The notes beneath the pieces were generated by a model. That model was not told the DNA's origin. It worked only from the letters and a program-made list of their open reading frames with translations, and did not search any database. The position numbers and the translations under genes are program-made. Of a DNA stretch of 40,632 nucleotides, positions 14,091-40,632 are shown piece by piece. The stretch is from an uncultured Planctomycetaceae bacterium (GTDB lineage Bacteria; Planctomycetota; Planctomycetia; Pirellulales; Pirellulaceae): positions 1-40,632 of the forward strand of contig CAIPEB010000727.1 in NCBI GenBank assembly GCA_903863885.1, given 5' to 3'. How positions within the stretch are numbered: position 1 is the first letter of the stretch; each line of letters opens with the position of its first letter.

Positions 14091-15254
14091 CTAGTCCCAC
14101 TTGTCATCTCCCTCTTCCTCGTCTTCGGCTTCTTCCTCGTCGTCTTCTTCATCTTCCCAGTCGAGGTCTTCTTCCTCGTCGTCCCATTCCTCGTCGTCCT
14201 CTTCGTCTTCGACTTCCTCCCAATCCTCGTCTTCGAAGTCTTCATCTTCGAAATCTTCTTCGTCGTCGAAGTCCTCTTCCTCGTCGTACTCTTCGTCTTC
14301 AAATTCCTCGTCTTCTTCGTCGTCGTCGAAGTCGTCTTCGTCGTCATCCTCGACTTCTTCTTCCTCGAAGTCGTCATCATCGCTGCAGCGAGGTTCACTC
14401 ATCGCGACGCCTGACAGGCACTGGTTCAGCAATTCCTCGGCGGGCAGAACGGGAACAAAAGTGGCGCTCACGTCGGGTTCCTCCTCATCATCACGGTCAA
14501 GGCGAGCAGAAGCCTTCTGCGGAAACATTCCTTCAACGATTTTATCTTGCTTCGGTCCACCCTCCGGCTTTCTTTCCCCGAGGGTTGCCGCCGGAAGATC
14601 ATCGAGGCTTTTCAGTCCAAACAATTGTAAGAATACTCTTGTGGTTCCGTACAGGTATGGTCGCCCAAGTTCCTCGCTGCGTCCCGTTATACGGACCAAA
14701 TCGCGTTCGATGAGTTGTCGGAGGATTTCTCCGCAATTCACTCCTCGTATGGCCTCAATTTCCGCTCGCCCGATCGGCTGTCGGTATGCAACAACTGCCA
14801 GTGTTTCCAGGGCCGGATTGGAAAAACGGGTTTCACCCGGTACGTGGCCCAGGCGTCGCAACCAACGAGAAAACTGAGGACGCGTCAGCAATTGATAACC
14901 GCCGGCCACTTCCTCGACGCGAAACGCGCGGCCGCGTGCATCGTACAACTCATTCAGTCGGCGGATTAGTGTACGCGCTTCCGTGGCATCCGCCAAGTTG
15001 GCGTACTGGCAGACCCGGCGGCTCGACAGAGGTTCGCGAGCCATGAAGATCACCGACTCGACCCGCCGCATGCGCTCATCGCGCGCTTCATTGGACCTGA
15101 CGGGAGCGTTTGGTGCATCGTTCCGCGATGCCCGATACAGCATGCACCAGGCAGCCCCTCGATGAGAGGAACTGACGTGCGATCCGCGGTCGACCCAACG
15201 TCCGCGGCCCGCAGCAGCCCGCTCGATTTCGAATGCGACTGACCTTCTCGGCAT
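14091..15254 (-). CDS. scpB: Segregation and condensation protein B with a long acidic tail
   Basis: A 387-residue protein. The ScpB core spans about residues 61-230: R-R-V-E-S-V-I-F-M-A-R-E-P-L opens the first winged helix, and E-T-L-A-V-V-A-Y-R-Q-P-I-G-R-A-E-I-E-A-I-R-G-V with L-G-R-P-Y-L-Y-G-T-T form the second. ScpB dimers join ScpA and SMC in the condensin that organises newly replicated DNA. After a linker, residues from about 286 are almost solid Asp/Glu with a few Phe, Trp and Tyr, roughly 100 residues ending D-D-K-W-D. The family normally ends near 200 residues. GGAGAA on the minus strand (15263-15268), eight bases upstream, supports the start at 15254. ATG codons at 15143 and 15071 lie nearer the conserved part and remain possible, since residues 1-60 look non-conserved. 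scpA is not in the window. Confidence 0.9.
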   Translation of the reverse strand: MPRRSVAFEIERAAAGRGRWVDRGSHVSSSHRGAAWCMLYRASRNDAPNAPVRSNEARDERMRRVESVIFMAREPLSSRRVCQYANLADATEARTLIRRLNELYDARGRAFRVEEVAGGYQLLTRPQFSRWLRRLGHVPGETRFSNPALETLAVVAYRQPIGRAEIEAIRGVNCGEILRQLIERDLVRITGRSEELGRPYLYGTTRVFLQLFGLKSLDDLPAATLGERKPEGGPKQDKIVEGMFPQKASARLDRDDEEEPDVSATFVPVLPAEELLNQCLSGVAMSEPRCSDDDDFEEEEVEDDDEDDFDDDEEDEEFEDEEYDEEEDFDDEEDFEDEDFEDEDWEEVEDEEDDEEWDDEEEDLDWEDEEDDEEEAEDEEEGDDKWD

Positions 15255-15429
15255 AGTGCAGCTTCTCCGATGCTATCACTATCCATTTTGCCGGCAGCCC
15301 GACAAGTGGCACGAACCTGCGGGCAACCCACTTCCAGATCGGTTTGCATTGCTTGTCAACTTCATGCGGGGTGTACAGAATTCACGGTTGGCGAGCCATC
15401 TTCCGGGTCCGCACGCTTGCGAGCATGGT

Positions 15430-16245
15430 ATGTCGGCAACTTCCTCGACTGTTTCCACTCCGCGAACCTCAGCCCAAAACACCGCCCGATGGCGTGGTCG
15501 GCTGGTTTTCGTCATGCTCTGCATCGTCCCCGCTTTAGCCTTGCTTGCCTATTTGACGTTCTATCTCGGCTGCGTTCAGGGCCAGGAGTTCTCGCCGGAC
15601 ACGTTCCAACGCCGCAGTTTTGCCTACTATGAACTGCCGCTGTTCGGTCTGCAGGTTTCGCCGATCAGCCGGGACTTCAATACGGGGGCGTGCGAAAAAT
15701 ACCTGATCGATCAGAAACTCGTTGTGCCCGATCCCAAGGCTCCTGCCGAGCCTCGATGGGATTTGGTCTATGCAAACCGCGGCTTTGGAGCCACGGAACG
15801 TCTTTCGGCGTACAGCGAAGCAAAGATTCTGTGTTACTATCTGGACGCTCTCGACAAAGACGGCAAGTCGATCTGGCTTACCTGGTCCGAAAAAAATCCG
15901 TCGCAGGCAGGCATACTTTGGCCGGCTATCGCGAGCCTGGCCCGACAACACCTCTATCTCTTTACCCCGGACCTGATGCGCCTGGCAGGGGCCAATCCCA
16001 CGCCGGAACAATTGAAATCGCAGATAGCTCAGACGCTGTCCGCCAAGTACTGCCTGTTGGCCCGTTCGCACAAGTCGCTGGGACGCTATGACACGGCGGT
16101 TGAACTATTCACCGAAGCGCTCGTCCACTCGCCCGGCCTGTCGGAAGCGAGGCTTGGCCGAGCAGAAGCTCTCGAAGCTCTCGGCAAACACACTGAAGCC
16201 GAGGCCGACCGTCAAGCAGCGCAGCAGCCGAAATCACCCTCGTGA
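15430..16245 (+). CDS. Membrane-anchored tetratricopeptide-repeat protein, function unknown
   Basis: 271 residues from the ATG at 15430. A Ser/Thr/Arg-rich N-terminus is followed by one strong membrane helix (about residues 24-46, V-M-L-C-I-V-P-A-L-A-L-L-A), then a domain I do not recognise (about 50-190). The C-terminus has TPR-like helices, the clearest being S-L-G-R-Y-D-T-A-V-E-L-F-T-E-A-L near 217-232 and a second unit at L-G-R-A-E-A-L-E-A-L-G-K. The frame stays open back to 15256, but that stretch reads as non-coding and would overlap the scpB promoter region. The next gene, a cysteine desulfurase, starts 45 bases later, suggesting co-transcription. It is probably an adaptor, with the TPR domain on the outer face if the N-terminus is cytoplasmic. 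Confidence 0.7.
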   Translation: MSATSSTVSTPRTSAQNTARWRGRLVFVMLCIVPALALLAYLTFYLGCVQGQEFSPDTFQRRSFAYYELPLFGLQVSPISRDFNTGACEKYLIDQKLVVPDPKAPAEPRWDLVYANRGFGATERLSAYSEAKILCYYLDALDKDGKSIWLTWSEKNPSQAGILWPAIASLARQHLYLFTPDLMRLAGANPTPEQLKSQIAQTLSAKYCLLARSHKSLGRYDTAVELFTEALVHSPGLSEARLGRAEALEALGKHTEAEADRQAAQQPKSPS

Positions 16246-16289
16246 CGCTTTCCACGTTTCCACAGGCTCGGGGCGTCGGTGCGGAGTGC

Positions 16290-17492
16290 ATGGAATCCAT
16301 CTATCTCGACAACAACGCGACCACGTTTCTGCTGCCCGAAGTGGCCGATGCCATGGATGAGTGTTGCCGGCGCGGGTACGGCAACCCGGCCAGCCAGCAC
16401 GCTCCAGGCAGGTTCGCGCGGCGGGCGCTGGAAGAGGCACGCGATGGCGTGGCGGAGATTCTCGGAGCGCATTTGTTCGGGCCGGACGCGGATCGTCTCG
16501 TGTTTACGAGCGGCGGCACCGAAGCCAACAACCTGGCGATGCGCGGTGCTGCGGGAAACTCGCCCGGACGGATCGTGATCTCCGCGATCGAGCACCCCAG
16601 CGTCTCGCGATGTGCTGCCGACCTGCTGCGCCTTGGACACGAGGTCGTACAACTCGAAGTGGACGCTTCGGGGCGACTGCGGCTGGACAGCTGGTCTCCC
16701 TATCTGAACGCGCAAACACGACTGGTCAGCGTCATGCTGGCCAATCACGAGACGGGGGTTATCCAGCCAGTGGAAGCGCTGGCAGTCAGGTGCCGTGAAA
16801 CGGGCGTGCTTCTGCACACCGATGCGACTCAGGCCGTGGGCAAGATCTCCGTAAATTTCCGCCAACTTGGAACAGCCGCCCTGACCTGTTCAGCGCACAA
16901 GTTCCATGGGCCCGTTGGAATCGGAGTGCTTTTACTTCGCAGTGACGTCGCCATCGATCCGCTTTTTGCGGGTGGGTCTCAGCAACGGGGTATCAGGCCG
17001 GGCACTGAGTCCGTCGTGCTGGCTGTCGGCATGTTTCGAGCGCTTCAAAGCTGGCAGGCCCGTTGCGTCGAATCGCACGAACGGTTGCAGAGGATGCGTG
17101 ACCGTTTCGAGGCCTCCTTGTCCGCTGCGATCCCGAATTTGACTGTCCATGGAAGGGACTCGGCACGACTGCCGCATGTCACGAATGTCTCTTTTCCGGA
17201 CGTGGACCGGCAGGCCATGATGATGGCTCTCGACCTGGAGGGAATCGCCTGTTCCACCGGTTCAGCTTGCGCCAGCGGTTCGAGCGAACCGTCGCCGGTC
17301 CTGAAAGCGATGGGGGTATCCGACGACCTGATTTCGTCCGCCCTCCGCTTTGCTTTCAGCACGCTGAACCGAGATGCCGACGCCGAAGAAGCGGCTGTTC
17401 GTATCCCCTCTATTTGGAGCAGGTTACGATCGATGCCGAGCGACGGAAAACGGGCTGCTCCATCTCGCTATTTTGGAGGAAAACCTGTATAA
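16290..17492 (+). CDS. Cysteine desulfurase (NifS/IscS family)
   Basis: A 400-residue PLP enzyme from the ATG at 16290, which begins M-E-S-I-Y-L-D-N-N-A-T-T as is typical. It takes sulfur from cysteine to form an enzyme persulfide used for Fe-S clusters, tRNA thiolation or cofactors. Visible are G-G-T-E-A-N-N at 75-81, N-H-E-T-G near 152-156, H-T-D-A-T-Q-A-V-G at 176-184, the PLP lysine in S-A-H-K-F-H-G-P (Lys204), and the catalytic loop C-S-T-G-S-A-C-A-S-G with Cys327. The loop is short and in the position typical of NifS/IscS. An in-frame GTG at 16242 would add 16 non-conserved residues. No iscU, sufE or thiI is adjacent, so the sulfur acceptor is unknown. It lies just upstream of dnaA, whose promoter may sit at this gene's 3' end. 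Confidence 0.92.
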   Translation: MESIYLDNNATTFLLPEVADAMDECCRRGYGNPASQHAPGRFARRALEEARDGVAEILGAHLFGPDADRLVFTSGGTEANNLAMRGAAGNSPGRIVISAIEHPSVSRCAADLLRLGHEVVQLEVDASGRLRLDSWSPYLNAQTRLVSVMLANHETGVIQPVEALAVRCRETGVLLHTDATQAVGKISVNFRQLGTAALTCSAHKFHGPVGIGVLLLRSDVAIDPLFAGGSQQRGIRPGTESVVLAVGMFRALQSWQARCVESHERLQRMRDRFEASLSAAIPNLTVHGRDSARLPHVTNVSFPDVDRQAMMMALDLEGIACSTGSACASGSSEPSPVLKAMGVSDDLISSALRFAFSTLNRDADAEEAAVRIPSIWSRLRSMPSDGKRAAPSRYFGGKPV

Positions 17493-17493
17493 T
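17488..17493 (+). promoter_or_regulatory. Possible -10 element upstream of dnaA
   Basis: A perfect TATAAT at 17488-17493 overlaps the last codons of the cysteine desulfurase gene. The sequence 17 bases upstream (TCGCTA, 17465-17470) does not resemble TTGACA, so only the -10 supports this. Transcription would begin near 17500, very close to the ATG at 17507 and about 45 bases before the alternative GTG start at 17546. Confidence 0.4.
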
Positions 17494-17506
17494 CCGCCGC
17501 TTGTCG

Positions 17507-18634
17507 ATGGAGGTTTCGACGTCTTCCTGCAGGCCTGGCGGATTTGTGGTGGTTAAATCCATTTCCCTGATTCCCTTGACACCGGAGACACATGGCAGGG
17601 ACTCGGCCGGCCGGCAGAATGTGCCGAGGAAGTTTTCGTCACGATTCTTCGTCGGCCCAGAAAACTGTCTGCTTGATGTGGTCTGGAACGCCGTCACCGA
17701 ACGCACGAGCCGCTACAATCCGGTCGTGCTGTACGGTCCGAGCGGCGTTGGCAAATCGCATTTCGTCGGCGCACTTGCCCGCCGCTTTCGAGACCATCAC
17801 CCGGACAGCAAGACCCTGTTGATCGGCGGCGAGGACTTTGCGCGGGTTTACGCTTCGGCCGTGGAGTTGGATTCGATTTCCGATCTGCGAAACAAATACC
17901 ACAACGCCGACTTTTTCGGGCTCGATGGACTCGAATCCCTGGCACATAAGCCAGCTGCGCTGTTGGAACTGCTGTACACGCTGGACAGCCTGCGGCAGCA
18001 GGGCCGCTGGGTATTCATCACGGCGAACTCATCTCCCGTCCAATTGCAATGGCTGACCGGCGGGCTTCGCAGCCGGCTGATTGGAGGGCTCACCGTTCCC
18101 GTGTCCACCTTGTCGGATTCGACTCGCAGCGCAGTGATTGACGACATGTTGCGGGAGAGGATTCCGGGAGCTGCGAGACAACAGGTCGAAGTCAGTCTGC
18201 GCAACGGAGGCCGTTTGGATCAGGGATGGCGTACGGTTCCGGATCTCCGCCTCGCGCTGCAGCAACTGCTGGACGGATTGGCATCGCCGGCACGCGGCGA
18301 CCAGCCGATTCCCGAAAGACAGAGTTCCAGCACTCCGGCGAAACAGGCGACTGTGCGCGAAATCACGAAGAGCGTGGCTCGATATTTCCGCCTTAAACAA
18401 AGCGAACTAACCGGCCCTTCGCGCCGCCAGGGAATCGTGCACGCGAGAAACGTGGCAATTTATCTCAGTCGCCGGATGACCGACACAAGTTACGAGAAGA
18501 TCGGCCTCCATTTCGGCGGCCGCGACCACACAACCGTACTGCACGCGTTCCAGCGTATCGCGTCGCTATTGGCCGACGACGCGAAGACTCAGCAGGCCAT
18601 TCGGGAATTGACGGAGGAATTGTGCGAGACGTGA
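17507..18634 (+). CDS. dnaA: Chromosomal replication initiator DnaA (short, lacking domain I)
   Basis: A 375-residue DnaA from ATG 17507; GTG at 17546 or 17549 are alternatives and no start has a strong Shine-Dalgarno. It has no recognisable domain I (the DnaB/DiaA-interaction domain of about 90 residues) and begins almost at the AAA+ module. Walker A is G-P-S-G-V-G-K-S at 77-84. Walker B is divergent: L-D-G at 139-141, so the second acidic residue of the usual I-D-D-I is Gly141. An S-R pair at 189-190 matches the box VII arginine region. The DNA-binding domain is textbook, with F-G-G-R-D-H-T-T-V-L-H-A (about 336-347), predicting normal DnaA-box recognition. Context (dnaN, dciA and gyrB downstream) supports this being the main initiator. 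If 17546 is used the protein is 362 residues. Confidence 0.9.
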   Translation: MEVSTSSCRPGGFVVVKSISLIPLTPETHGRDSAGRQNVPRKFSSRFFVGPENCLLDVVWNAVTERTSRYNPVVLYGPSGVGKSHFVGALARRFRDHHPDSKTLLIGGEDFARVYASAVELDSISDLRNKYHNADFFGLDGLESLAHKPAALLELLYTLDSLRQQGRWVFITANSSPVQLQWLTGGLRSRLIGGLTVPVSTLSDSTRSAVIDDMLRERIPGAARQQVEVSLRNGGRLDQGWRTVPDLRLALQQLLDGLASPARGDQPIPERQSSSTPAKQATVREITKSVARYFRLKQSELTGPSRRQGIVHARNVAIYLSRRMTDTSYEKIGLHFGGRDHTTVLHAFQRIASLLADDAKTQQAIRELTEELCET

Positions 18635-19065
18635 TTCCTTTTCCGGGGACAGGCCGGAGTGTGGAAAACTTGTCACTTGCTGTCGACAGATGACTCGAAC
18701 AAACCGGGTTATCGACAGACAAATCGAAGCCGGCAATTGAAACGATCAGATATCGCCAGGTCAGCCACAGGAATCAAACACAACAACAACAGGTTTTCCA
18801 CGAAGATTCGCGGGTTTTCGTTCCCCGAACCTGTTTGAAATCAATAGCTTGAAGAGTTTGCGGCCTGTCACGGCCCCGCATGGCTTCCGCATCACTACCA
18901 CTGATTTAGAAAACTGTAAAAGAGAAGAGAAAGGCCGGAGGCAAGTAAGGTCCGCGAAAGCACACGCCGCAAGACAAACGGCCGAGCCAACACGAACACA
19001 GACTCCCGCATTGATTGAACCTCGCAGGCGAGAGCATCTGCAGGTCCCAGGAGGAAGAAGAGAAT
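18635..19065. other. Probable chromosomal origin region (oriC) between dnaA and dnaN
   Basis: About 430 bp without a gene, in the classic oriC location. DnaA-box-like sites: TGTGGAAAA at 18660-18668 (minus-strand TTTTCCACA, fits TTWTNCACA), TTATCGACA at 18709-18717 (one mismatch to TTATCCACA) and TTTTCCACG at 18794-18802 (one mismatch). An inverted CTGTCGACAG lies at 18680-18689 and shares TCGACAGA with the second box. A/T-richer stretches near 18838-18852 and 18899-18930 are candidate unwinding segments, but none is strongly A/T-rich. The promoter and leader of dnaN must also be here. The number of good boxes is low for an origin, and clusters may also lie elsewhere. Confidence 0.55.
19049..19054 (+). 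promoter_or_regulatory. Shine-Dalgarno of dnaN
   Basis: AGGAGG at 19049-19054 lies 11 bases before the ATG at 19066, within a purine-rich run. It fixes the dnaN start at 19066 instead of an earlier in-frame codon at 19015, which would add 17 non-conserved residues. Confidence 0.7.
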
Positions 19066-20181
19066 ATGAAGATCGTATGTGAACGAGAACACCTCTTGTC
19101 AGCGTTTCAGACTGCCGCACTTGTTTCACCAACACGCAGTCCCAAGCCGATCCTCAGGAACGTGAAATTTGATTCCACCGAAGGTTCGCTCGTGTTGATG
19201 GCCACGGATCTCGAAGTGGGCATCCGCATCGAGGTCCCGCAGGTGGAGGTGCTTGAACGTGGAAGCATCGTCCTGCCGACGGCGCAGCTGGGCCCGATCC
19301 TGAAGGAGATGATTGACGAGCGTTTGACGATTGATGCGGACCCGCAGCGGATCATCATCCAGGGCGACCGCAGTCGATTTGTTCTACCGGCTCAGAACGC
19401 CGACGAATTTCCCAATGTGCTCGGCTTCGAGGAACAGGGCTACTTCGAGATTCCGGCCCGACTGTTGCGTGAGCTGATTCGCCGGACTTTGTTCGCCGCG
19501 GATGTGGAGAGCGCCCGGTACGCGCTGGGTGGCGTATTGCTGGAATTCCAGCCCGAGCGGATGATCGCCGTGGCGACGGATGGCCGGCGGCTGGCCAAGA
19601 TGGAAGCTCCCTGTCAGGAAGTCGGCACCCGTGAAGCGGATGACATGATGACGATTGTCCCCAGCCGGGCCATGCAGCTCATCGAACGGGCGCTGGGGGA
19701 TCCGGATTCGATCGTTCACGTCTCGGCTCGCCGCAACGACGTGCTTGTGCGCAGCGACCGGGCCACGATCTACTCGCGACTCGTTGAAGGACGATTTCCG
19801 CGGTGGCGTGATGTGCTACCGCAAAGGCAGGATTCCGTACAGATCGACGTGATTGTCGGCCCGTTGTATTCGGCGTTGCGGCAGGCTTCGATCGTCACCG
19901 ACGACGAGAGCCGCGGGATCGACTTCGAATTCCAGGAAGGGTCGCTGGTGCTGACTGCGGCCACGAATCAGATCGGGCAATCGCGGGTCGAGTTTCCCAT
20001 TGCCTACAGCGGTTCGCCCGTGAAGATCACGCTGGATCATCGGTTCGTGGCGGATTTTCTCCGCGTGCTCGAGCCGGAAAAGACCGTTTCGCTGGATATC
20101 CAGAATAACGAGGCCGCGGCGCTCTTTACCACGGATGACGGTTACGGCTACGTGGTCATGCCGCTTGCCCGTGAGGCATAG
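19066..20181 (+). CDS. dnaN: DNA polymerase III sliding clamp (beta subunit)
   Basis: A 371-residue DnaN, the normal length, starting M-K-I-V-C-E-R-E-H-L-L. Two of these form the ring that tethers polymerase III and other enzymes to DNA. Three similar domains are visible: residues 1 to about 120 (P-I-L-R-N-V-K-F-D, A-T-D-L-E-V-G-I), 128-245 (F-A-A-D-V-E-S-A-R-Y-A-L-G-G-V, V-A-T-D-G-R-R-L-A) and 246-371 (L-R-Q-A-S-I-V-T-D-D-E-S-R-G). The end P-L-A-R, close to the usual (M)P-(M)-R-L finish that borders the peptide-binding pocket, is present. It follows the probable oriC and precedes dciA by about 100 bp. Confidence 0.97.
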   Translation: MKIVCEREHLLSAFQTAALVSPTRSPKPILRNVKFDSTEGSLVLMATDLEVGIRIEVPQVEVLERGSIVLPTAQLGPILKEMIDERLTIDADPQRIIIQGDRSRFVLPAQNADEFPNVLGFEEQGYFEIPARLLRELIRRTLFAADVESARYALGGVLLEFQPERMIAVATDGRRLAKMEAPCQEVGTREADDMMTIVPSRAMQLIERALGDPDSIVHVSARRNDVLVRSDRATIYSRLVEGRFPRWRDVLPQRQDSVQIDVIVGPLYSALRQASIVTDDESRGIDFEFQEGSLVLTAATNQIGQSRVEFPIAYSGSPVKITLDHRFVADFLRVLEPEKTVSLDIQNNEAAALFTTDDGYGYVVMPLAREA

Positions 20182-20186
20182 CATTC

Positions 20187-20205
20187 CTCAGGCACCGGAC
20201 CTGAG
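20187..20205 (+). other. Short hairpin after dnaN
   Basis: CTCAGG (20187-20192) pairs with CCTGAG (20200-20205) around a seven-base loop, starting five bases past the dnaN stop. No T-run follows. It could be a weak attenuator or an mRNA end-stabilising structure within a dnaN-dciA-gyrB transcript. Confidence 0.35.
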
Positions 20206-20283
20206 CACATCGACCTTCCAGTTGCCGGAGTTTTTCAGTAATGGGACGTTCGGCGTCCAGCCAGGCCGCACCGGACAATTCCT

Positions 20284-23249
<2,966 letters not shown>

Positions 23250-23286
23250 GGATCTCACCAACAGACATCTTCCCGAGGAGCCTCCG

Positions 23287-24365: not shown

Positions 24366-25280
24366 ATGCTGCAACTGGCACGAGTCGTCAACGGGGTCAT
24401 CACAAGGAATGTCGAATCAGACGGAAATGTGTACGTCTACGTCAATCCGAGTGAAGCCGAACGCAAGTACCTGGCGGAGACATTCAAACTCGACGAACAT
24501 ACGTTGAATTCCGCCTTGGACCCGGACGAACAGGGCCGAATGGAGTTCGAACCCGAACACGTTGCCATCATCTTCAAGCGGCCGCACAACTATTCCAGCG
24601 AGGAGGAATTTGTTTTCCGCGTGACCTCGGCCGGGCTCTTCCTGTTTCAGGACAAGTTGATCGTGATCCTCTCGGAAAGCGTTCCGATGTTCGAAGGCAA
24701 AGCCTTCACGAGGATCTCCTCGCTGCAGGAACTGGTGCTCAAGATCGTCTACAGCTCGATCGCCCATTTTGTCGGCCACTTGAAGGTCATCAACGCGGTC
24801 TCCGAATCGCTCGAGGACCAGATCAACACGTCCATGCAGAACAAGTATCTGCTGGATCTGTTCAGCCTGGAAAAGAGCCTTGTTTATTACCTCAATGCCA
24901 TCAACTCGAACTCGAAACTGATCGAGCGTCTCAAGCTGAGTGCGGCGAAGATCGGCTTTACCGCGGAGAATATCGAGTTCATCGACGACTTGATGATCGA
25001 GAACAGCCAATGCTATGAACAGGCATCGATTTACTCGAACATTCTCGCAAGCATGATGGATGCCCGAGCCTCGATTGTCAGCAATAATCTGAACTGGCTG
25101 ATGAAGACGCTGACGATCATCACCATTGCGATCATGCTCCCGACGCTGGTGGTCAGCATTTTCTCGATGAACGTCGAATTCCCCGGCCGCACCCATCCGA
25201 GCATGTTCTGGATCGTGCTGTTCTTTGCGACAGTTTCGGTATTCATGGTGCGTATCGTCTGGCTTTGGAAACGGTGGTAG
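24366..25280 (+). CDS. CorA-family divalent-cation channel with altered GMN motif
   Basis: A 304-residue CorA-like protein (PF01544): a cytoplasmic alpha/beta domain (about 1-140), long stalk helices (about 140-245), then two membrane helices (about 246-268 and 279-299) and the short basic end W-L-W-K-R-W. CorA pentamers carry Mg2+, and some relatives carry Co2+, Ni2+ or Zn2+. The signature after the first membrane helix is normally Y-G-M-N; here it reads F-S-M-N, so the Gly of the selectivity loop is Ser. That replacement is uncommon and may change ion choice or conductance. The frame is otherwise full length and without defects. It follows the aldolase by 35 bp, apparently in the same operon. 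Confidence 0.85.
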   Translation: MLQLARVVNGVITRNVESDGNVYVYVNPSEAERKYLAETFKLDEHTLNSALDPDEQGRMEFEPEHVAIIFKRPHNYSSEEEFVFRVTSAGLFLFQDKLIVILSESVPMFEGKAFTRISSLQELVLKIVYSSIAHFVGHLKVINAVSESLEDQINTSMQNKYLLDLFSLEKSLVYYLNAINSNSKLIERLKLSAAKIGFTAENIEFIDDLMIENSQCYEQASIYSNILASMMDARASIVSNNLNWLMKTLTIITIAIMLPTLVVSIFSMNVEFPGRTHPSMFWIVLFFATVSVFMVRIVWLWKRW

Positions 25281-25360
25281 ACTATCGCCCGCCGTGCGAT
25301 CCCGGAACCCGGATCGGTCGGCGTCGGGGAACGACACGTGAGCTTGCGATGGCGGCCGTC

Positions 25361-35317: not shown

Positions 35318-38182
35318 CTACGGTTGCTGCTTGAGCGAGGTCTCATAGACACGCCCGATTTCCTCGGCGGGAAATGCGCGTGCGTAGAATGCGAAGTCAT
35401 CGATCAGCCCGAGCAATTTCTCGTTAGCGATCGAGTAGTGCGGGTTCATTCCCAGGGCGAAATCCGTTGCGCTCGTGGCAAGCAGCTCGGGTACTTGCGC
35501 GGTATCCTTGAGTTGTCCGTTGACGTACAGGCGGAGCGCCGGACCTTCCTTCACAACGGCAACGTGGATCCATTTCTCGGGTTCGACGTCTATTCCTTTG
35601 GTGCCGAAGACCTGTCCTGCTTCGATGCGTGCGAACAGCTTCTTGCCGTGAATGCAGACGCGAATCGGATCATCCATGCCTGCGCGCCATGCGGAGACGA
35701 TCTGTTGCAGATGATTGTCCGCGGGGTGGCCGGGGCGTACCCATGCGTAAAACGTATAGTCGCGTTTGGGGAACTCAGCCAGTCGATAGGTGATACCCGA
35801 GTGTTCGCCGTCGAACGTTACCGCCGCGCCGGAGTGGCCGAAGCGATCGATGCCCGGCTTGACGGCGGCGGCCGATCCGAGCAGGCCGAACTTGGGATCG
35901 CCGTTGCCGTCCAGCGGTGACGAAGTGATCAGACGATTTGGCCCCAGCTGGTAGAGCTGCATTAGCTTCTCGGCCTCATTGGGCAGTTGCTTATCAAACG
36001 AGAATGCTCTTGGGCCGAGATCGTTTGCTCGCGACCGTCCCTTTTCGTGTGCGGAAACGCTCCAGTAATAGGTCGAATCGGGATCCAGGCTCTGCTTCAT
36101 GATATGGACTTCATCGCGGAGCCCTTCCGCCTTGTAGACGACGTCCTTGCCGGCGAGATCGCGGCTGACGACCAGCGAGAAGGTGCGTTGATCATCATTT
36201 ACGCCGAACAATCCTCGCCAGACGAACAGCACTGGTCCGGGGGCCACGGCTTGAGTGGACATAGGACGTGACAGGATCGGGGGCGTCGGATCCGTGTTGA
36301 CAGCTGGAATCCAGGCGGCGTAGTCATTGCCGTGGGCTCCGGCCGAGGCAAAGTCGCAGAGGACGATTTTCTTGCCGTCGGCGGTTGCGACTTTCCACAT
36401 CTTGATCGGCAAAAAGGTGCCTGGCGCCGATGTGCCCGGTGCTGGTGCGGCCGCGGGCTCAATCTGCAGCTTGGACACATCGACAGGTGGAATGTCGGCC
36501 GTATCGAGGGAGTTGTAGTGCGGGTCGAAGGTCATGAGGAGCGGACCGGCGTACAGAGCGGCGCGGTTTGCGCGTGCAAGGGCTCCCGCCCAGTGTCGCG
36601 GGGTCATGTCCAGATTCAGTTCGATCTTATCGCCGTCTTTCCAGGATCGTTCAGCGGCGAAATAGGTTCCGCGTTGAATGGTGTCGGGGGCCGGGCAATT
36701 CTCGCCGTTGATCTTGATATCTGTCTTGTGCGACCACTGGGGAATTCTCAGGCGGAGCGTGAACTTCGACGGCTCCGGCAGGTGAAGCGTAATCGCGATC
36801 TTTCCATCGCAAGGATAGGCCGTTTCCTGGATCAGTTGCAGTGCTGAGCCGTTTGGCAGGGTCGTTGTCATCTGGCAAGGACCATAGAAGTTGACAAGCA
36901 CTCCGTTAGCGTCCTGGACGATGCCCCATTCCGTGACGAATCCGATGCCGCGCGGAGCGTTGACGGAGCAGCAGTTCAGTTCGGGGGTGCCGGCGCGCGA
37001 TTGAAATACAATCGTGTGCGCGGAGGCTTCGCGAGCCCCGTTGACGGGCGTGTTGTAAGTCCACCATCGTCCGCACGGGTGCTGAGAGCCGAGGACGCTG
37101 TTCCAGAGGGACATCTCCAGTTCGTCGGCTGCGCGCGGGTCGCCGGTCAGCTTCAGCATGTCGACCGACAGAGCGCACCAGGCGGTTGTGCAGCAGGTTT
37201 CGATTGCGCCTTCCTGGTAGGGATTTCCCACGGCTTGTTCTCCGGTCGAGAAACTGCCCGAGGGATGTCGGTCGAATTCCGCGATGCCTCGCCAGAGGTT
37301 CGTGAACGCCTTCTTGTAAACGGGGTCGCCGGTGATTCGATAGAGTTCCACGATGCCCTGCAGGTCGTGGAGGCTCTCCCAGCGAGGGCGCGGGATCTGA
37401 TAGAAGGGCATGCCGCTGGCTCCGGCGCGCACGTAATCGCCCGACTTTTCCCAGTCTTTTTCAATCTCGCGCATCATCTGCAGGTAGATTTCGCGGCCGG
37501 TCAGCCTGTAGAGCTCACCCAGGCTGTGGATGATTGCCATGTTCATTTCATGCGAACCGGCGTCGATCACGCGTCGATCGGTATTCAAATAGGTCTTGCA
37601 GACGAGATCCGCTGCCCGTACGGCCGCATCAAGGGCTTTTGCATCGCCGGTCTCGCGATTCCACATAAGCAGGGCGAGCATGATGTGATAGTGACCCCAC
37701 AGATCCCAGTTGCCCCGCAGGCGGTCGGCGGCCGGGAAGGGTCCGAGATATCCGTCTTCGGCCTGGGTCGCGATCAGGGCCGAGATCATGTGTTCGACAT
37801 AGCTTCGCAGTCGGGCGTCATCCGTCATTTGCAGCGCAGGGATCGCGGACAACAGGTACTTGCCCACGAACTCGCCGGCCCACGGCACCAATTGCGGCAC
37901 GGGTTTTCGATCCCGCACGCGGAACATATCGAGCATGCCCGGATTCGACTCGGGCGCGACCAGCAGCCACTGATCGACGTTGTTGCTTATTCGCTGGCCG
38001 AGCGGGCCCTGGAAAGTGAATTTCGCATGCGGGATCGGCTGGAGAGCCATCGTGCCCTTATCCGGCACAGCGGGCTTTGGCTGGTGTGACGCTTCCGCGG
38101 CTTCCGCGACACCTGAGGTGCTGATCGCCACACACCACACGGTTGCCGCCCAGAGGGCACTTGCGCAAAGCAACGATTTCAT
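35318..38182 (-). CDS. GH127 beta-L-arabinofuranosidase-like glycosidase with C-terminal LamG domain
   Basis: 954 residues with a signal peptide (residues 1-29, A-V-W/T-V-W-C-V-A-I-S core). A (alpha/alpha)6 barrel of GH127/DUF1680 type follows (about 50-430): E-D-G-Y-L-G-P, S-H-E-M-N-M-A, and the metal/nucleophile residues Glu328 and Cys330 in I-E-T-C-C-T plus Cys404/Cys405 in L-N-C-C-S. These match Glu338, Cys340, Cys417 and Cys418 of the characterised Bifidobacterium enzyme HypBA1 in order and spacing. Beta-sandwich domains follow (about 430-640), then a region I do not recognise (about 640-740), and a LamG/concanavalin-like domain (about 770-945; V-T-F-D-G-E-H-S-G-I, F-Y-A-W-V-R-P, W-I-H-V-A-V-V). 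It is presumably secreted and acts on arabinose-containing polysaccharide. Confidence 0.9.
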   Translation of the reverse strand: MKSLLCASALWAATVWCVAISTSGVAEAAEASHQPKPAVPDKGTMALQPIPHAKFTFQGPLGQRISNNVDQWLLVAPESNPGMLDMFRVRDRKPVPQLVPWAGEFVGKYLLSAIPALQMTDDARLRSYVEHMISALIATQAEDGYLGPFPAADRLRGNWDLWGHYHIMLALLMWNRETGDAKALDAAVRAADLVCKTYLNTDRRVIDAGSHEMNMAIIHSLGELYRLTGREIYLQMMREIEKDWEKSGDYVRAGASGMPFYQIPRPRWESLHDLQGIVELYRITGDPVYKKAFTNLWRGIAEFDRHPSGSFSTGEQAVGNPYQEGAIETCCTTAWCALSVDMLKLTGDPRAADELEMSLWNSVLGSQHPCGRWWTYNTPVNGAREASAHTIVFQSRAGTPELNCCSVNAPRGIGFVTEWGIVQDANGVLVNFYGPCQMTTTLPNGSALQLIQETAYPCDGKIAITLHLPEPSKFTLRLRIPQWSHKTDIKINGENCPAPDTIQRGTYFAAERSWKDGDKIELNLDMTPRHWAGALARANRAALYAGPLLMTFDPHYNSLDTADIPPVDVSKLQIEPAAAPAPGTSAPGTFLPIKMWKVATADGKKIVLCDFASAGAHGNDYAAWIPAVNTDPTPPILSRPMSTQAVAPGPVLFVWRGLFGVNDDQRTFSLVVSRDLAGKDVVYKAEGLRDEVHIMKQSLDPDSTYYWSVSAHEKGRSRANDLGPRAFSFDKQLPNEAEKLMQLYQLGPNRLITSSPLDGNGDPKFGLLGSAAAVKPGIDRFGHSGAAVTFDGEHSGITYRLAEFPKRDYTFYAWVRPGHPADNHLQQIVSAWRAGMDDPIRVCIHGKKLFARIEAGQVFGTKGIDVEPEKWIHVAVVKEGPALRLYVNGQLKDTAQVPELLATSATDFALGMNPHYSIANEKLLGLIDDFAFYARAFPAEEIGRVYETSLKQQP

Positions 38183-38687
38183 GGCGAGGATCCTATCTTT
38201 CCAGGGAGAGCCATCGAAGTCGCATCAGCCTACCATCAGCCGCCCCCGCCGTCTAATTCGAACACAGACACCCACCCTCCGGCCGTTTTGTCCGCACCGG
38301 ACGCAGACACCCACTCTCCTCACGCCGGCGCCGTGTGGGTGTCTGTAGGCGGTACCGGCCGCCGTTGCTACGCTAGACATCCCCGCAGCGTTCGCGGCTT
38401 GGTCGAAAAACCCAGAAAAATTCCTCGAAAGCCAAGCCATGCGCAGTACGTGTCGCTCCCGCCGCGGGGAAGCCAATCTGACAACATCTCGCAAACCCTG
38501 AAATCTCAAGGCAACTCCGAACATCGCAAACGGCTCCCCCCCTGATCTGACCCGTTGCGTCGTCAGTTTTGAGGCAGTAGACTCTTCGAGCGGGCAACCA
38601 CTCGGCCGTTGTCCAGGGCCAAAGTCCTGCGACAATCAATGGTGCTTGACTCTTTTCTGTAACCCAAGTCCGATTCAGGCTGCCATC
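38183..38687. other. Intergenic region with a short repeat cluster
   Basis: About 505 bp without a convincing gene, upstream of the leftward GH127 gene and the rightward lipoprotein gene. The left half holds the CAGACACCCAC repeats listed separately. The right half (38400-38640) is unremarkable. TTGACT at 38646-38651 is a possible -35 for the lipoprotein gene, but the hexamer 17 bases on (TCCGAT) is a poor -10. Small open frames in both directions here have compositions typical of chance. Confidence 0.5.
38265..38345. repeat. Direct and inverted CAGACACCCAC repeats
   Basis: CAGACACCCAC occurs at 38265-38275 and 38304-38314 (39 bases apart), and its exact reverse complement GTGGGTGTCTG at 38335-38345. 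Copies two and three can form an 11-pair stem around a 20-base loop containing the palindrome CGGCGCCG; copies one and three could pair instead. It looks like a REP-like or small palindromic intergenic element, and could also be an operator or mRNA leader structure for GH127. Confidence 0.75.
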
Positions 38688-39983
38688 ATGCGCGGTAAAT
38701 ATGTCTGCTTGCTCTTGCTTACGCTCGCTTTCTCAGGCTGTACCGAAATGCGAGTTGAAGGCGATGCAAAAGTATTTCAGAGCTCTTCCCTAGGGTCGAC
38801 AATTCGCATCGTTATCGGCTTAGGATTGATCGGATTGGGAATCACTGCTTTTGTTGGCAGTGTGTTGCCCGACCGAATGCCAAACAACCGCACTGTGAAA
38901 CTCGGCGATAGGCTTTCTTCTGGACAGCGGGTAGGCCTGGCGCTTTTTGGTGGCGCTATGGGTTTCGTTGGATTATTCCTGGCTGCCATCTCACTCCTGT
39001 TTCCCAGCAAACTGCATGTGACTGTCTACCCTGATCGCGTCGCAATGGCATCCACATATTCGCAAACGGGTGGTAGAGAAGTCGTTGTCCCGTTTGCGGG
39101 ACTGTCTGCTGTTGAACTACGCGATGAACCGGGTATCGTTGGAAAGACGAGAACATTTTTGGTGTTTACTCAGAAAAGCGGAAGGGTGATCAAGCAGGAT
39201 GCGGGCAACAATGAAAGGCAAGCTGTGGAGACTATCCGCCAAACGCTTGCCGAGTATCAAAAGTCTGCTCCAGCCACCGAGAACAGCGTCGCTTCTGTTG
39301 CGCCTTCAAGTTCAACGGAAAGTGGTAGAGTTGAAAATCAGCGACCATTGAACTCTGGGGCCGTGCCGGCAGTCCGTCCATCTGGCCGCAACCATTCTCC
39401 AGCCCAGCCAACGGACAAAGAGTACCAACTCAAGCGATATGCCATCACAACTCTTAAGCCAGAAGGTTATCGCCTGGTTAGTCCTGGTGACTCATTTGCA
39501 CCTGGCGATAAGCTAAAAGCCTGCTCGGGGAGAATGTGGTTTTTTGTGACCGTTGTTGCCGTCAATGACGATGGGACAATTACCTGCAACTGGGACGACT
39601 TTCCATCTTTCACTTACAAAATGATGCGTGAAGATCTAATCACTGTGGATGAGACAGCGTCAAGCAACACGACTGCGACAACTGGCTCACCGTCCCCTGC
39701 TATAGTTCCGCCTACCTTGCCTCAGCAATCTACGCAGCAATACGCCTTGAAGCGTTACAAGATAACCATCCCAATCCCAAGAGGTTATGCAATTGTCGGG
39801 GCAAGTGTAGAAGTGAAAGTTGGCTCTAAGCTGCAAGCATGTTATGCAGGGCATTGGGAGTATGTAACCGTTGTCGCTGTAAATGAGGATGGAACGATTA
39901 CTTGCAATTGGGACAATTGGAAGTTGTTTACATACAAAATGGTGCGAGAAGATCTAATCGTTGCAGAGCAAAATGGTCATTAG
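38688..39983 (+). CDS. Lipoprotein with two membrane helices and a duplicated C-terminal domain
   Basis: 431 residues from ATG 38688; earlier in-frame non-ATG codons would disrupt the signal. A lipoprotein signal ends in A-F-S-G-C (Cys18). Two membrane helices follow (about 45-66 and 86-108), then a beta-rich PH-like segment (about 110-195), a Ser/Pro/Thr linker and two copies of a 70-75-residue domain (about 245-320 and 352-425). Each copy has L-K-R-Y, a G-D/S-K-L-x-A-C turn, V-T-V-V-A-V-N-(D/E)-D-G-T-I-T-C-N-W-D and T-Y-K-M-(M/V)-R-E-D-L-I. The W-D and the strand pattern suggest a small SH3- or Tudor-like barrel. No function is known. The region is visibly A/T-richer than the rest of the window. 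The next gene starts inside its 3' end. Confidence 0.8.
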   Translation: MRGKYVCLLLLTLAFSGCTEMRVEGDAKVFQSSSLGSTIRIVIGLGLIGLGITAFVGSVLPDRMPNNRTVKLGDRLSSGQRVGLALFGGAMGFVGLFLAAISLLFPSKLHVTVYPDRVAMASTYSQTGGREVVVPFAGLSAVELRDEPGIVGKTRTFLVFTQKSGRVIKQDAGNNERQAVETIRQTLAEYQKSAPATENSVASVAPSSSTESGRVENQRPLNSGAVPAVRPSGRNHSPAQPTDKEYQLKRYAITTLKPEGYRLVSPGDSFAPGDKLKACSGRMWFFVTVVAVNDDGTITCNWDDFPSFTYKMMREDLITVDETASSNTTATTGSPSPAIVPPTLPQQSTQQYALKRYKITIPIPRGYAIVGASVEVKVGSKLQACYAGHWEYVTVVAVNEDGTITCNWDNWKLFTYKMVREDLIVAEQNGH

Positions 39984-40632
39984 GCGTGACGGACAGTTGT
40001 TCGAAGGTTTACCTTTGTCATATTGGGACAGATGGCTATTGGAATGTCAGGCTAGATTTGGCCCAGCGCCCCGCGATTTCGATGTCGCCGCGCTCAGGAT
40101 GCTACTTGTCAATCCACCATGGGTTACAAAACTTAGGTTCGGTGACGTCTTAGCCAAGTTGGTGCAAAACAATACCCTTTGCGGTCTGTTCAAAACCGGA
40201 ATTGTTGTTTGGGGGCATGTAATTCAGGCCAACGAAGAACTATTCACACCCTCACCTTCCCTCGACTCGTATACGTATGATCGTGCAGGCGAGGTCGTTT
40301 TTGAAGTACATGGCGGCACACTTGGAACTCCTTTAGAACTTGAACGCGTTGCCAAGGAGTTAGGTAGTTTGAAGTACTCTGATGATCTGGATTCCGAATT
40401 GCAACCGTGGGCAGACTATTTGACTGCCGAGACCGTAAGGGTTGTGGGGTGGCAAGTTCCGACAAAGCTAACTGCATCAACAACTTGTTTTGTGTCTACC
40501 ACACTCTTCCGACGTAGCCACTTGCCAACCGGTGTTTTGCAGCAATCGCTTCTTCCGCTTGTCGTCGCGACAAAGCAGCCATACTTTGCGATGCCCCTAC
40601 CCAAAGAGTACTGGCCGCAAGATTTGCTTCAA
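39973..40632 (+). CDS. Unrecognised protein, N-terminal 220 residues (partial, runs off the window)
   Basis: An ATG at 39973 overlaps the last 11 bases of the lipoprotein gene in another frame and opens a frame with no stop to the end of the window, 220 codons. It begins M-V-I-R-R-D-G-Q-L-F-E-G-L-P-L-S-Y-W-D-R. Composition is balanced, with hydrophobic and charged residues spread as in a soluble globular protein; N-P-P-W-V-T-K near residue 47 and G-V-L-Q-Q-S-L-L-P-L-V later are notable but not diagnostic. No signal peptide or membrane helix is visible. I recognise no family. The short overlap suggests translational coupling to the lipoprotein and shared function. The A/T-richer base composition matches that gene. 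Confidence 0.7.
   Translation, partial: MVIRRDGQLFEGLPLSYWDRWLLECQARFGPAPRDFDVAALRMLLVNPPWVTKLRFGDVLAKLVQNNTLCGLFKTGIVVWGHVIQANEELFTPSPSLDSYTYDRAGEVVFEVHGGTLGTPLELERVAKELGSLKYSDDLDSELQPWADYLTAETVRVVGWQVPTKLTASTTCFVSTTLFRRSHLPTGVLQQSLLPLVVATKQPYFAMPLPKEYWPQDLLQ

Follow-up and report, generated by a model that had tools for sequence, protein, structure and literature searches.

What do two overlapping genes of low GC content at the very end of a planctomycete contig encode, and do they amount to a unit of a new kind? The window analysed here is the whole of contig C727, a stretch of 40,632 bases belonging to a genome of 11.0 Mb in 789 contigs, and the original prediction saw in its last two genes (here p1 and p2) a coupled, recently acquired and unrecognised pair. 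Our preferred reading, to which we would give a probability of about 0.4, is that p1, anchored in the inner membrane, reads amine-modified peptides of the envelope and that p2 is its co-translated cytosolic partner.

The gene structure is as anticipated (Table 1): p1 is a gene for a lipoprotein of 431 residues, the frames of the two genes overlap by 11 bases, and the contig stops inside p2; as close p2 relatives have 225-228 residues, the window copy misses roughly six. The last 24 bases of the window are absent from all other contigs of the same genome. Base composition deviates as claimed, at about 50% GC against 61% before the pair (0.498 in p1 and 0.495 in p2, vs 0.606 in bases 1-38687), with the fall setting in near 38400-38600. 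Codon usage bears this out, GC3 being 0.47 in p1 and 0.49 in p2 against 0.59-0.80 in 24 of the 25 other open reading frames of the window; the exception (24420-25337, at 0.50) may not be a gene. No tRNA lies in the window, and promoter and terminator signals were not above chance. Named matches to p1 in the genome collection number four, all from Planctomycetota.

Table 1. Features of the p1-p2 locus, in window positions
Feature	Position	Strand	Basis or remark
p1, lipoprotein gene	38688..39983, stop included	+	Open reading frame; purifying selection, dN/dS 0.14-0.24, two homologue pairs
Signal peptide and lipobox (...AFSGC), Cys18	38688..38741	+	Cys18 invariant, 8/8 homologues
Modelled PH strands 1-2, residues 19-32	38742..38783	+	AlphaFold2 model, block pLDDT 43-50
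Predicted transmembrane helix 1, residues 34-59	38787..38864	+	Hydropathy, model
Positive loop, residues 60-81, PDRxPxNR, predicted cytoplasmic	38865..38930	+	Charge, conservation
Predicted transmembrane helix 2, about residues 82-104 (78-104 in model)	38931..38999	+	Hydropathy, model
Remaining PH-like domain and C-terminal helix, residues 105-193	39000..39266	+	Model
Barrel 1, chromo/Tudor-like as modelled, residues 246-321	39423..39650	+	One cage position is Ser
Barrel 2, chromo/Tudor-like as modelled, residues 352-427	39741..39968	+	Cage candidates Y386, W390, W408, W411, F414
Overlap of p1 and p2 reading frames, 11 bases	39973..39983	+	Same length in L005 and L015
p2, uncharacterised protein, first 220 residues; contig end cuts gene	39973..40632, ATG at 39973	+	

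The surroundings offer some observations in their own right. The divergent neighbour gene (window 35318-38182) encodes a GH127 enzyme of the beta-L-arabinofuranosidase type with a C-terminal laminin-G-like domain. Further upstream, dnaN (19015-20178) and gyrB (20649-23246) lie close together and the cumulative GC skew is lowest near 15-17 kb, such that the window may span or adjoin a replication origin (15000-23250). Two metagenome-assembled contigs from related genomes begin at the same codon of the p1 signal peptide (L003:1-10 and L004:1-10), which, together with the ending of the window contig within p2, points to repeated assembly breaks at this locus.

For the first half of p1, modelling gives a PH domain interrupted by a membrane hairpin. 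In the AlphaFold2 model (five sequences; mean pLDDT 59, modest), strands at residues 19-32 are followed by a two-helix hairpin, by further strands and a helix to residue 193, and then by a low-confidence linker and two barrels; the order is that of beta1-beta2, two transmembrane helices, beta3-8 and a helix, with strands 1-2 at low confidence. VIA-align superposes residues 20-188 on a bacterial PH domain (3dcx_B; Z 8.7, 89 residues, rmsd 3.1), Z values for p1 (8.7 here and 8.9 below) being middling by the tool's own note. The top Foldseek match is 8kei_D (E 2e-4; target TM-score low at 0.41, rmsd 9.6), from the NOX2-p22phox-EROS complex, in which we infer chain D to be EROS. A profile of this half searched against PDB sequences returned three matches (E 0.3-2.9), none meaningful and none an EROS chain.

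Thirteen of the 16 positions from 18 to 33 are invariant in seven homologues, the most conserved stretch of the first half, and a lipobox-like pattern occurs in 7 of 8 p1 homologues (L043 is without it). The loop between the helices carries +5/-2 charges in the window and +6 to +8 against -2 or -3 in six close homologues (residues 60-82), and 9 of its 22 positions are invariant across these seven sequences. The diverged p1 of G147, a genome that has no p2, keeps three of those nine; this speaks weakly for docking at the loop, because other parts of that protein have changed equally. Lipobox-like motif and positive loop hint at secretion, and suggest that p1 lies mainly on the periplasmic side. 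We regard the architecture of p1 as fairly well supported.

The second half holds the two near-copies of a domain that had first drawn attention. They are 76-residue repeats that align without gaps at 43/76 identical residues (score 224, equalled by none of 2000 shuffles, the best of which reached 14), and the core quoted for them, V-x-V-V-A-V-N-x-D-G-T-I-T-C-N-W-D, is exact; as the copies are 62% identical in DNA, the duplication is not fresh. We model the repeats as Tudor/chromo-like SH3 barrels with an aromatic cage that is largely kept. The block has a pLDDT of mostly 65-85, Foldseek matches it to a tandem Agenet structure (6ie4_C, E 4.5e-4) and to the PHF20 Tudor domain (3qii; E 0.011, 50 columns, rmsd 1.3, target TM-score 0.79), and VIA-align places barrel 2 on plant SAWADEE domains (7ef0_B; Z 8.9, 65 residues, rmsd 1.8). 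A profile search of the PDB is led by L3MBTL MBT, PHF20 Tudor and Agenet chains (E 0.005 to 1.5), with a few unrelated chains at 1.4-1.7; with a best value of E 0.005, support from sequence alone is weak. In Pfam the repeats have no match above cut-off, and only single members give Tudor, Agenet or MBT matches, at chance level. The claim that neither gene is recognisable has thus to be given up for the p1 repeats, on the strength of modelled fold and cage residues and despite their absence from Pfam, and kept for p2: profile and structure searches led to Tudor, Agenet and MBT folds for the barrels, and sequence searches to no family for p2.

The cage positions were equated, by inspection and partly via the MBT alignment, with the five described for bacterial chromo-like barrels (PMC5906684). 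An aromatic residue (F, W, Y or H) stands at the position of Y386 in 28/29, of W390 in 29/29, of W408 in 29/29, of W411 in 27/28 and of F414 in 23/27 cases, in a 29-barrel alignment without five of the 32 copies found, which are more diverged; with those five copies the counts are 32/34, 33/34, 32/34, 29/33 and 29/34. In the window, the cage of barrel 2 is complete with five aromatics and that of barrel 1 has four, the latter counting against a reader function. Tandem barrels, two in the window p1, number three in L008 and L049. An SHD1 domain is found above cut-off in four relatives with barrels (L008, L048, L052 and L084) and is lacking in the window p1, and planctomycete relatives also join the barrel to zinc-ribbon-like N-termini (by eye; L050 is below cut-off) or to hydrophobic helices (likewise by eye). 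A search for p1 paralogues in the window's own genome brought up one distant barrel protein, on contig C733 (L128:1483-2529), which has 349 residues, hydrophobic segments and one diverged C-terminal barrel.

The pairing of the two genes extends beyond the window. Eight of 241 family genomes, from 7 of 68 genera, were found to have a p1 with the split PH-like domain, and seven of the eight also have p2, vs 30/241 overall (hypergeometric 1.7e-6, relatedness ignored); such genome counts, for p1 and p2 alike, are minimum values wherever scoring covered only part of the first-look candidates. In six of the eight, p2 adjoins p1 (the window, G065, G194, G006, G249 and G248), with overlaps of 11, 11, 11 and 26 bases and with gaps of 70 and 40, the gaps counting against the proposed reading. 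Two further genomes count against the proposed reading, G024 with p2 elsewhere in the genome and G147 with its diverged p1 and no p2. Both genes are under purifying selection (dN/dS 0.11-0.24 over p1 and p2, in two genome pairs and by two methods), and the identities of p1 and p2 correlate with each other (rho 0.72, over 10 non-independent pairs), vs rho values of -0.54 to -0.01 with dnaN and hemA over the same 10 pairs. Synonymous divergence between L003 and L004 is about 0.3 in p1 and about 0.9 in p2, hinting at recombination between the two genes. In G190 and G192, p2 lies 50 bases behind a different protein, which has a hydrophobic hairpin, one barrel and SHD1. By eye, from the starts of reading frames and within the contigs, we noticed no shared neighbour beyond the pair; the survey ends where the contigs do, such that the downstream side of the window and the upstream sides of L003 and L004 fall outside it.

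By its sequence matches, p2 is an uncatalogued protein family that reaches other phyla on plasmids. Searched for families, single p2 sequences and a set of 32 members alike gave scattered chance matches at most; of the 32, run against Pfam, PHROGs and PADLOC, no two shared a match, with none at E 0.1 in PADLOC and one, at chance level, in PHROGs. The window p2 by itself has no match in NCBIfam, and the 32-member alignment searched as a profile against the PDB met three designed coiled-coil chains, as judged by their names. Three columns are invariant in the 32 sequences and 12 nearly so, from which no catalytic set stands out, and a structure model (four sequences, pLDDT 41) failed, which counts against the proposed role. 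Profile searches find p2 in 30/241 family genomes and in 18/294 genomes spread over the phylum, and tblastn on 4 of 72,556 plasmids, one of Streptomyces venezuelae and three of Moraxella osloensis; p1 had no match on the plasmids searched. A phage origin of p2 was considered and set aside, as 0 of 50,697 phage records match. In 23 of the 30 family genomes with p2 there is no p1, another point against the proposed reading.

The settings of p2 away from p1 are varied. It occurs alone, behind zinc-ribbon-like N-termini (L082, L083 and L085; CxxC by eye), before hydrophobic segments (L101 and L114, by eye) and beside varied genes elsewhere, those named including an RsmB/F methyltransferase, YjeF_N, a protein kinase, an M48 peptidase-TPR protein and a SUKH-ankyrin protein. 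It follows an RsmB/F-type methyltransferase-like gene after 2-3 bases in L106:6480-8602 and L107:6053-8224 (the latter assigned by likeness to L106) and after 168 bases in L104:7692-10865. In L101:3855-9283 the p2 domain starts a 586-residue protein with hydrophobic segments (by eye), whose reading frame overlaps a serine/threonine kinase-TPR gene by one base. A tandem pair of p2 genes stands directly behind a SUKH (SMI1/KNR4)-ankyrin gene in L102:5949-8250; SUKH genes are known from immunity arrays. The relatives on Moraxella osloensis plasmids (L114:5926-6783, which ends in a hydrophobic tail, and L115:1338-2270) lie near toxin-antitoxin and recombinase genes.

As to the history of the pair, lateral spread of p1-p2 is suggested, and composition and patchiness together suggest acquisition in the window lineage. 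Among the five taxa with the adjacent pair compared in trees, the trees of pair and core genes are at one on the window-G065 grouping and in conflict only on that of G006 with G194. These two genomes are each other's closest in p1 (80%) and p2 (73%), while in dnaN a third genus is equally close and hemA does not place them nearest each other; dnaN and hemA together reject a G006-G194 clade (p-AU 0.016), these two genes being the whole of the core yardstick and agreeing poorly with one another (rho 0.35). Transfer between the window lineage and G065 was considered and set aside, as it is G024 that makes the core genes reject the two as an exclusive clade (p-AU 0.003); with G024 removed, the trees of core genes and pair are in accord on this point, and recent acquisition stays a suggestion. 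The deviating composition on which that claim leaned holds; recency itself is no more than suggested, with no tRNA and no obvious mobile gene seen on the one flank that the window covers. The genomes searched all lie outside the window's own genus. In L005, L080, L084 and L086, too, p1 or p2 has a GC3 slightly under that of its neighbours, which is not so in L002-L004. The idea of an undescribed unit survives in that the genes appear coupled, are atypical in composition and patchy in distribution, that p2 belongs to no named family, and that neither the p1-p2 pair nor a PH-barrel fusion has an earlier account that we found in the open-access literature; it fails for the repeats, which are of a kind already described.

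Gene structure, repeats, conservation and co-occurrence rest on direct observation and the folds on modelling; on these we build a proposal for topology, ligand, coupling, docking and relay. p1 would be a lipoprotein with two additional passes through the inner membrane, such that the lipidated Cys18, the split PH-like domain and both barrels face the periplasm and only the loop of residues 60-81 is cytosolic; a point against this topology is that in other bacterial PH membrane proteins the PH domain is predicted to lie inside the cell (PMC2817789). We suggest that the aromatic cage of the barrels holds a side chain with a modified, methyl-lysine-like amine on a peptide of the cell wall or envelope, a ligand taken by analogy from the literature on this kind of barrel, and that the PH part holds p1 against the membrane or a partner. 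p2 would be soluble and cytosolic, made from the message of p1 by coupled translation, and would most likely dock on the membrane at the conserved loop, through which p1 may tether or signal to it. We consider it improbable that a fuller version holds in all its parts, namely that the EROS-like split PH and the chromo-like barrels sense methylated envelope peptides, that the PDRxPxNR loop signals to p2 and that the unit spreads laterally.

Several other explanations have to be weighed against this. p1 alone could be a tether to wall or matrix, made of a membrane anchor and peptide-binding barrels, with p2 a co-transcribed accessory that has its own cytosolic role; most p2 genes found do stand alone or by other genes, and barrels occur without p2 in several genomes (relatives in G106, G147 and G201, for example). 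The co-occurrence of the genes in seven of eight genomes, their adjacency in six and the concordant identities of p1 and p2 argue against such independence, as does the finding of p2 beside a second hairpin-plus-barrel architecture (L084 and L086), and we regard a tether acting by itself as rather unlikely, if a serious competitor. A role for p1 as a chaperone or assembly factor of membrane proteins, its split PH domain holding a client as in EROS and its barrels supplying extra contacts, would fit the order of strands and helices in p1, which is that of EROS in its AlphaFold model and of PIGH as predicted (PMC9767466), and also the best Foldseek match. That match has the low TM-score and the rmsd given above, no shared third gene was noticed by eye beside the pairs, and the predicted membrane side of the p1 PH part differs from that in EROS. 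The PH domain of EROS is cytosolic. We hold the chaperone explanation to be clearly unlikely.

Less probable still is that the pair forms a conflict system with p2 as an immunity or defence protein, for which one may cite the patchy distribution, the toxin-antitoxin genes beside p2 in two of the three Moraxella osloensis plasmid records opened, and the tandem copies beside the SUKH-ankyrin gene; against it, inspection by eye of the genes beside the pairs, on the contig sides present, brought up no recognisable toxin, and the PADLOC and PHROGs searches gave the results reported above. We would be similarly surprised if p1 and p2 were ordinary genes of their lineage, with low GC for expression reasons and forming no unit. 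The somewhat lowered GC3 in four other loci, where there is no proof of transfer, speaks for this; the presence of p1 in 8/241 genomes, the 11-base overlap in three of them and the conflict of the pair tree with dnaN and hemA over G006-G194 (p-AU 0.016, from two core genes only) speak against.

If p1 is indeed an envelope reader with p2 as its partner, the two genes might serve to monitor the state of the envelope. Eukaryotic histone-mark readers have been suggested to derive from bacterial chromo-like barrels, the ligand of which is a prediction (PMC5906684), and a unit of just two genes, in which barrel 2 keeps its full cage, the membrane topology is predicted and a partner gene is at hand, would make a tractable test case for that ligand. 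The p1 model also points to a bacterial protein with the PH topology that the paper on the EROS model described as not seen before (PMC9767466), and p2 to an uncatalogued family present in other phyla via plasmids.

Among known systems, the closest description of the barrels is that of Kaur et al. 2018 (PMC5906684), the available part of which covers secreted, tandem, SHD1-linked bacterial chromo-like SH3 barrels with a five-position cage, planctomycetes included, and predicts methylated-lysine-like groups of murein or matrix as their ligand. Fold, five cage positions, predicted secretion and tandem copies recur in p1, as do SHD1 in its relatives and planctomycete hosts; p1 differs in its fusion to a PH domain with a membrane hairpin and in its partner p2, features beyond those named in that part of the paper. 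EROS (CYBC1), and PIGH as predicted, resemble the p1 model in that two transmembrane helices are inserted into the PH domain after strand 2 and ahead of strand 3, an arrangement seen for EROS in an AlphaFold model (PMC9767466, eLife 2022), but p1 bears barrels, would be lipid-anchored and is predicted to lie on the outer face. The Pfam family bPH_10 (PF23494, YqeB-like bacterial PH) matches the same region weakly in L004 and L048 (E 0.05-0.09), the best homologues reaching 13.4 and 12.6 bits vs a cut-off of 27, and is unlisted for the window p1. Finally, the eukaryotic Tudor, Agenet and MBT readers share the modelled fold and the aromatic cage with the barrels of p1, which differ from them in being bacterial and, by prediction, extracytoplasmic.
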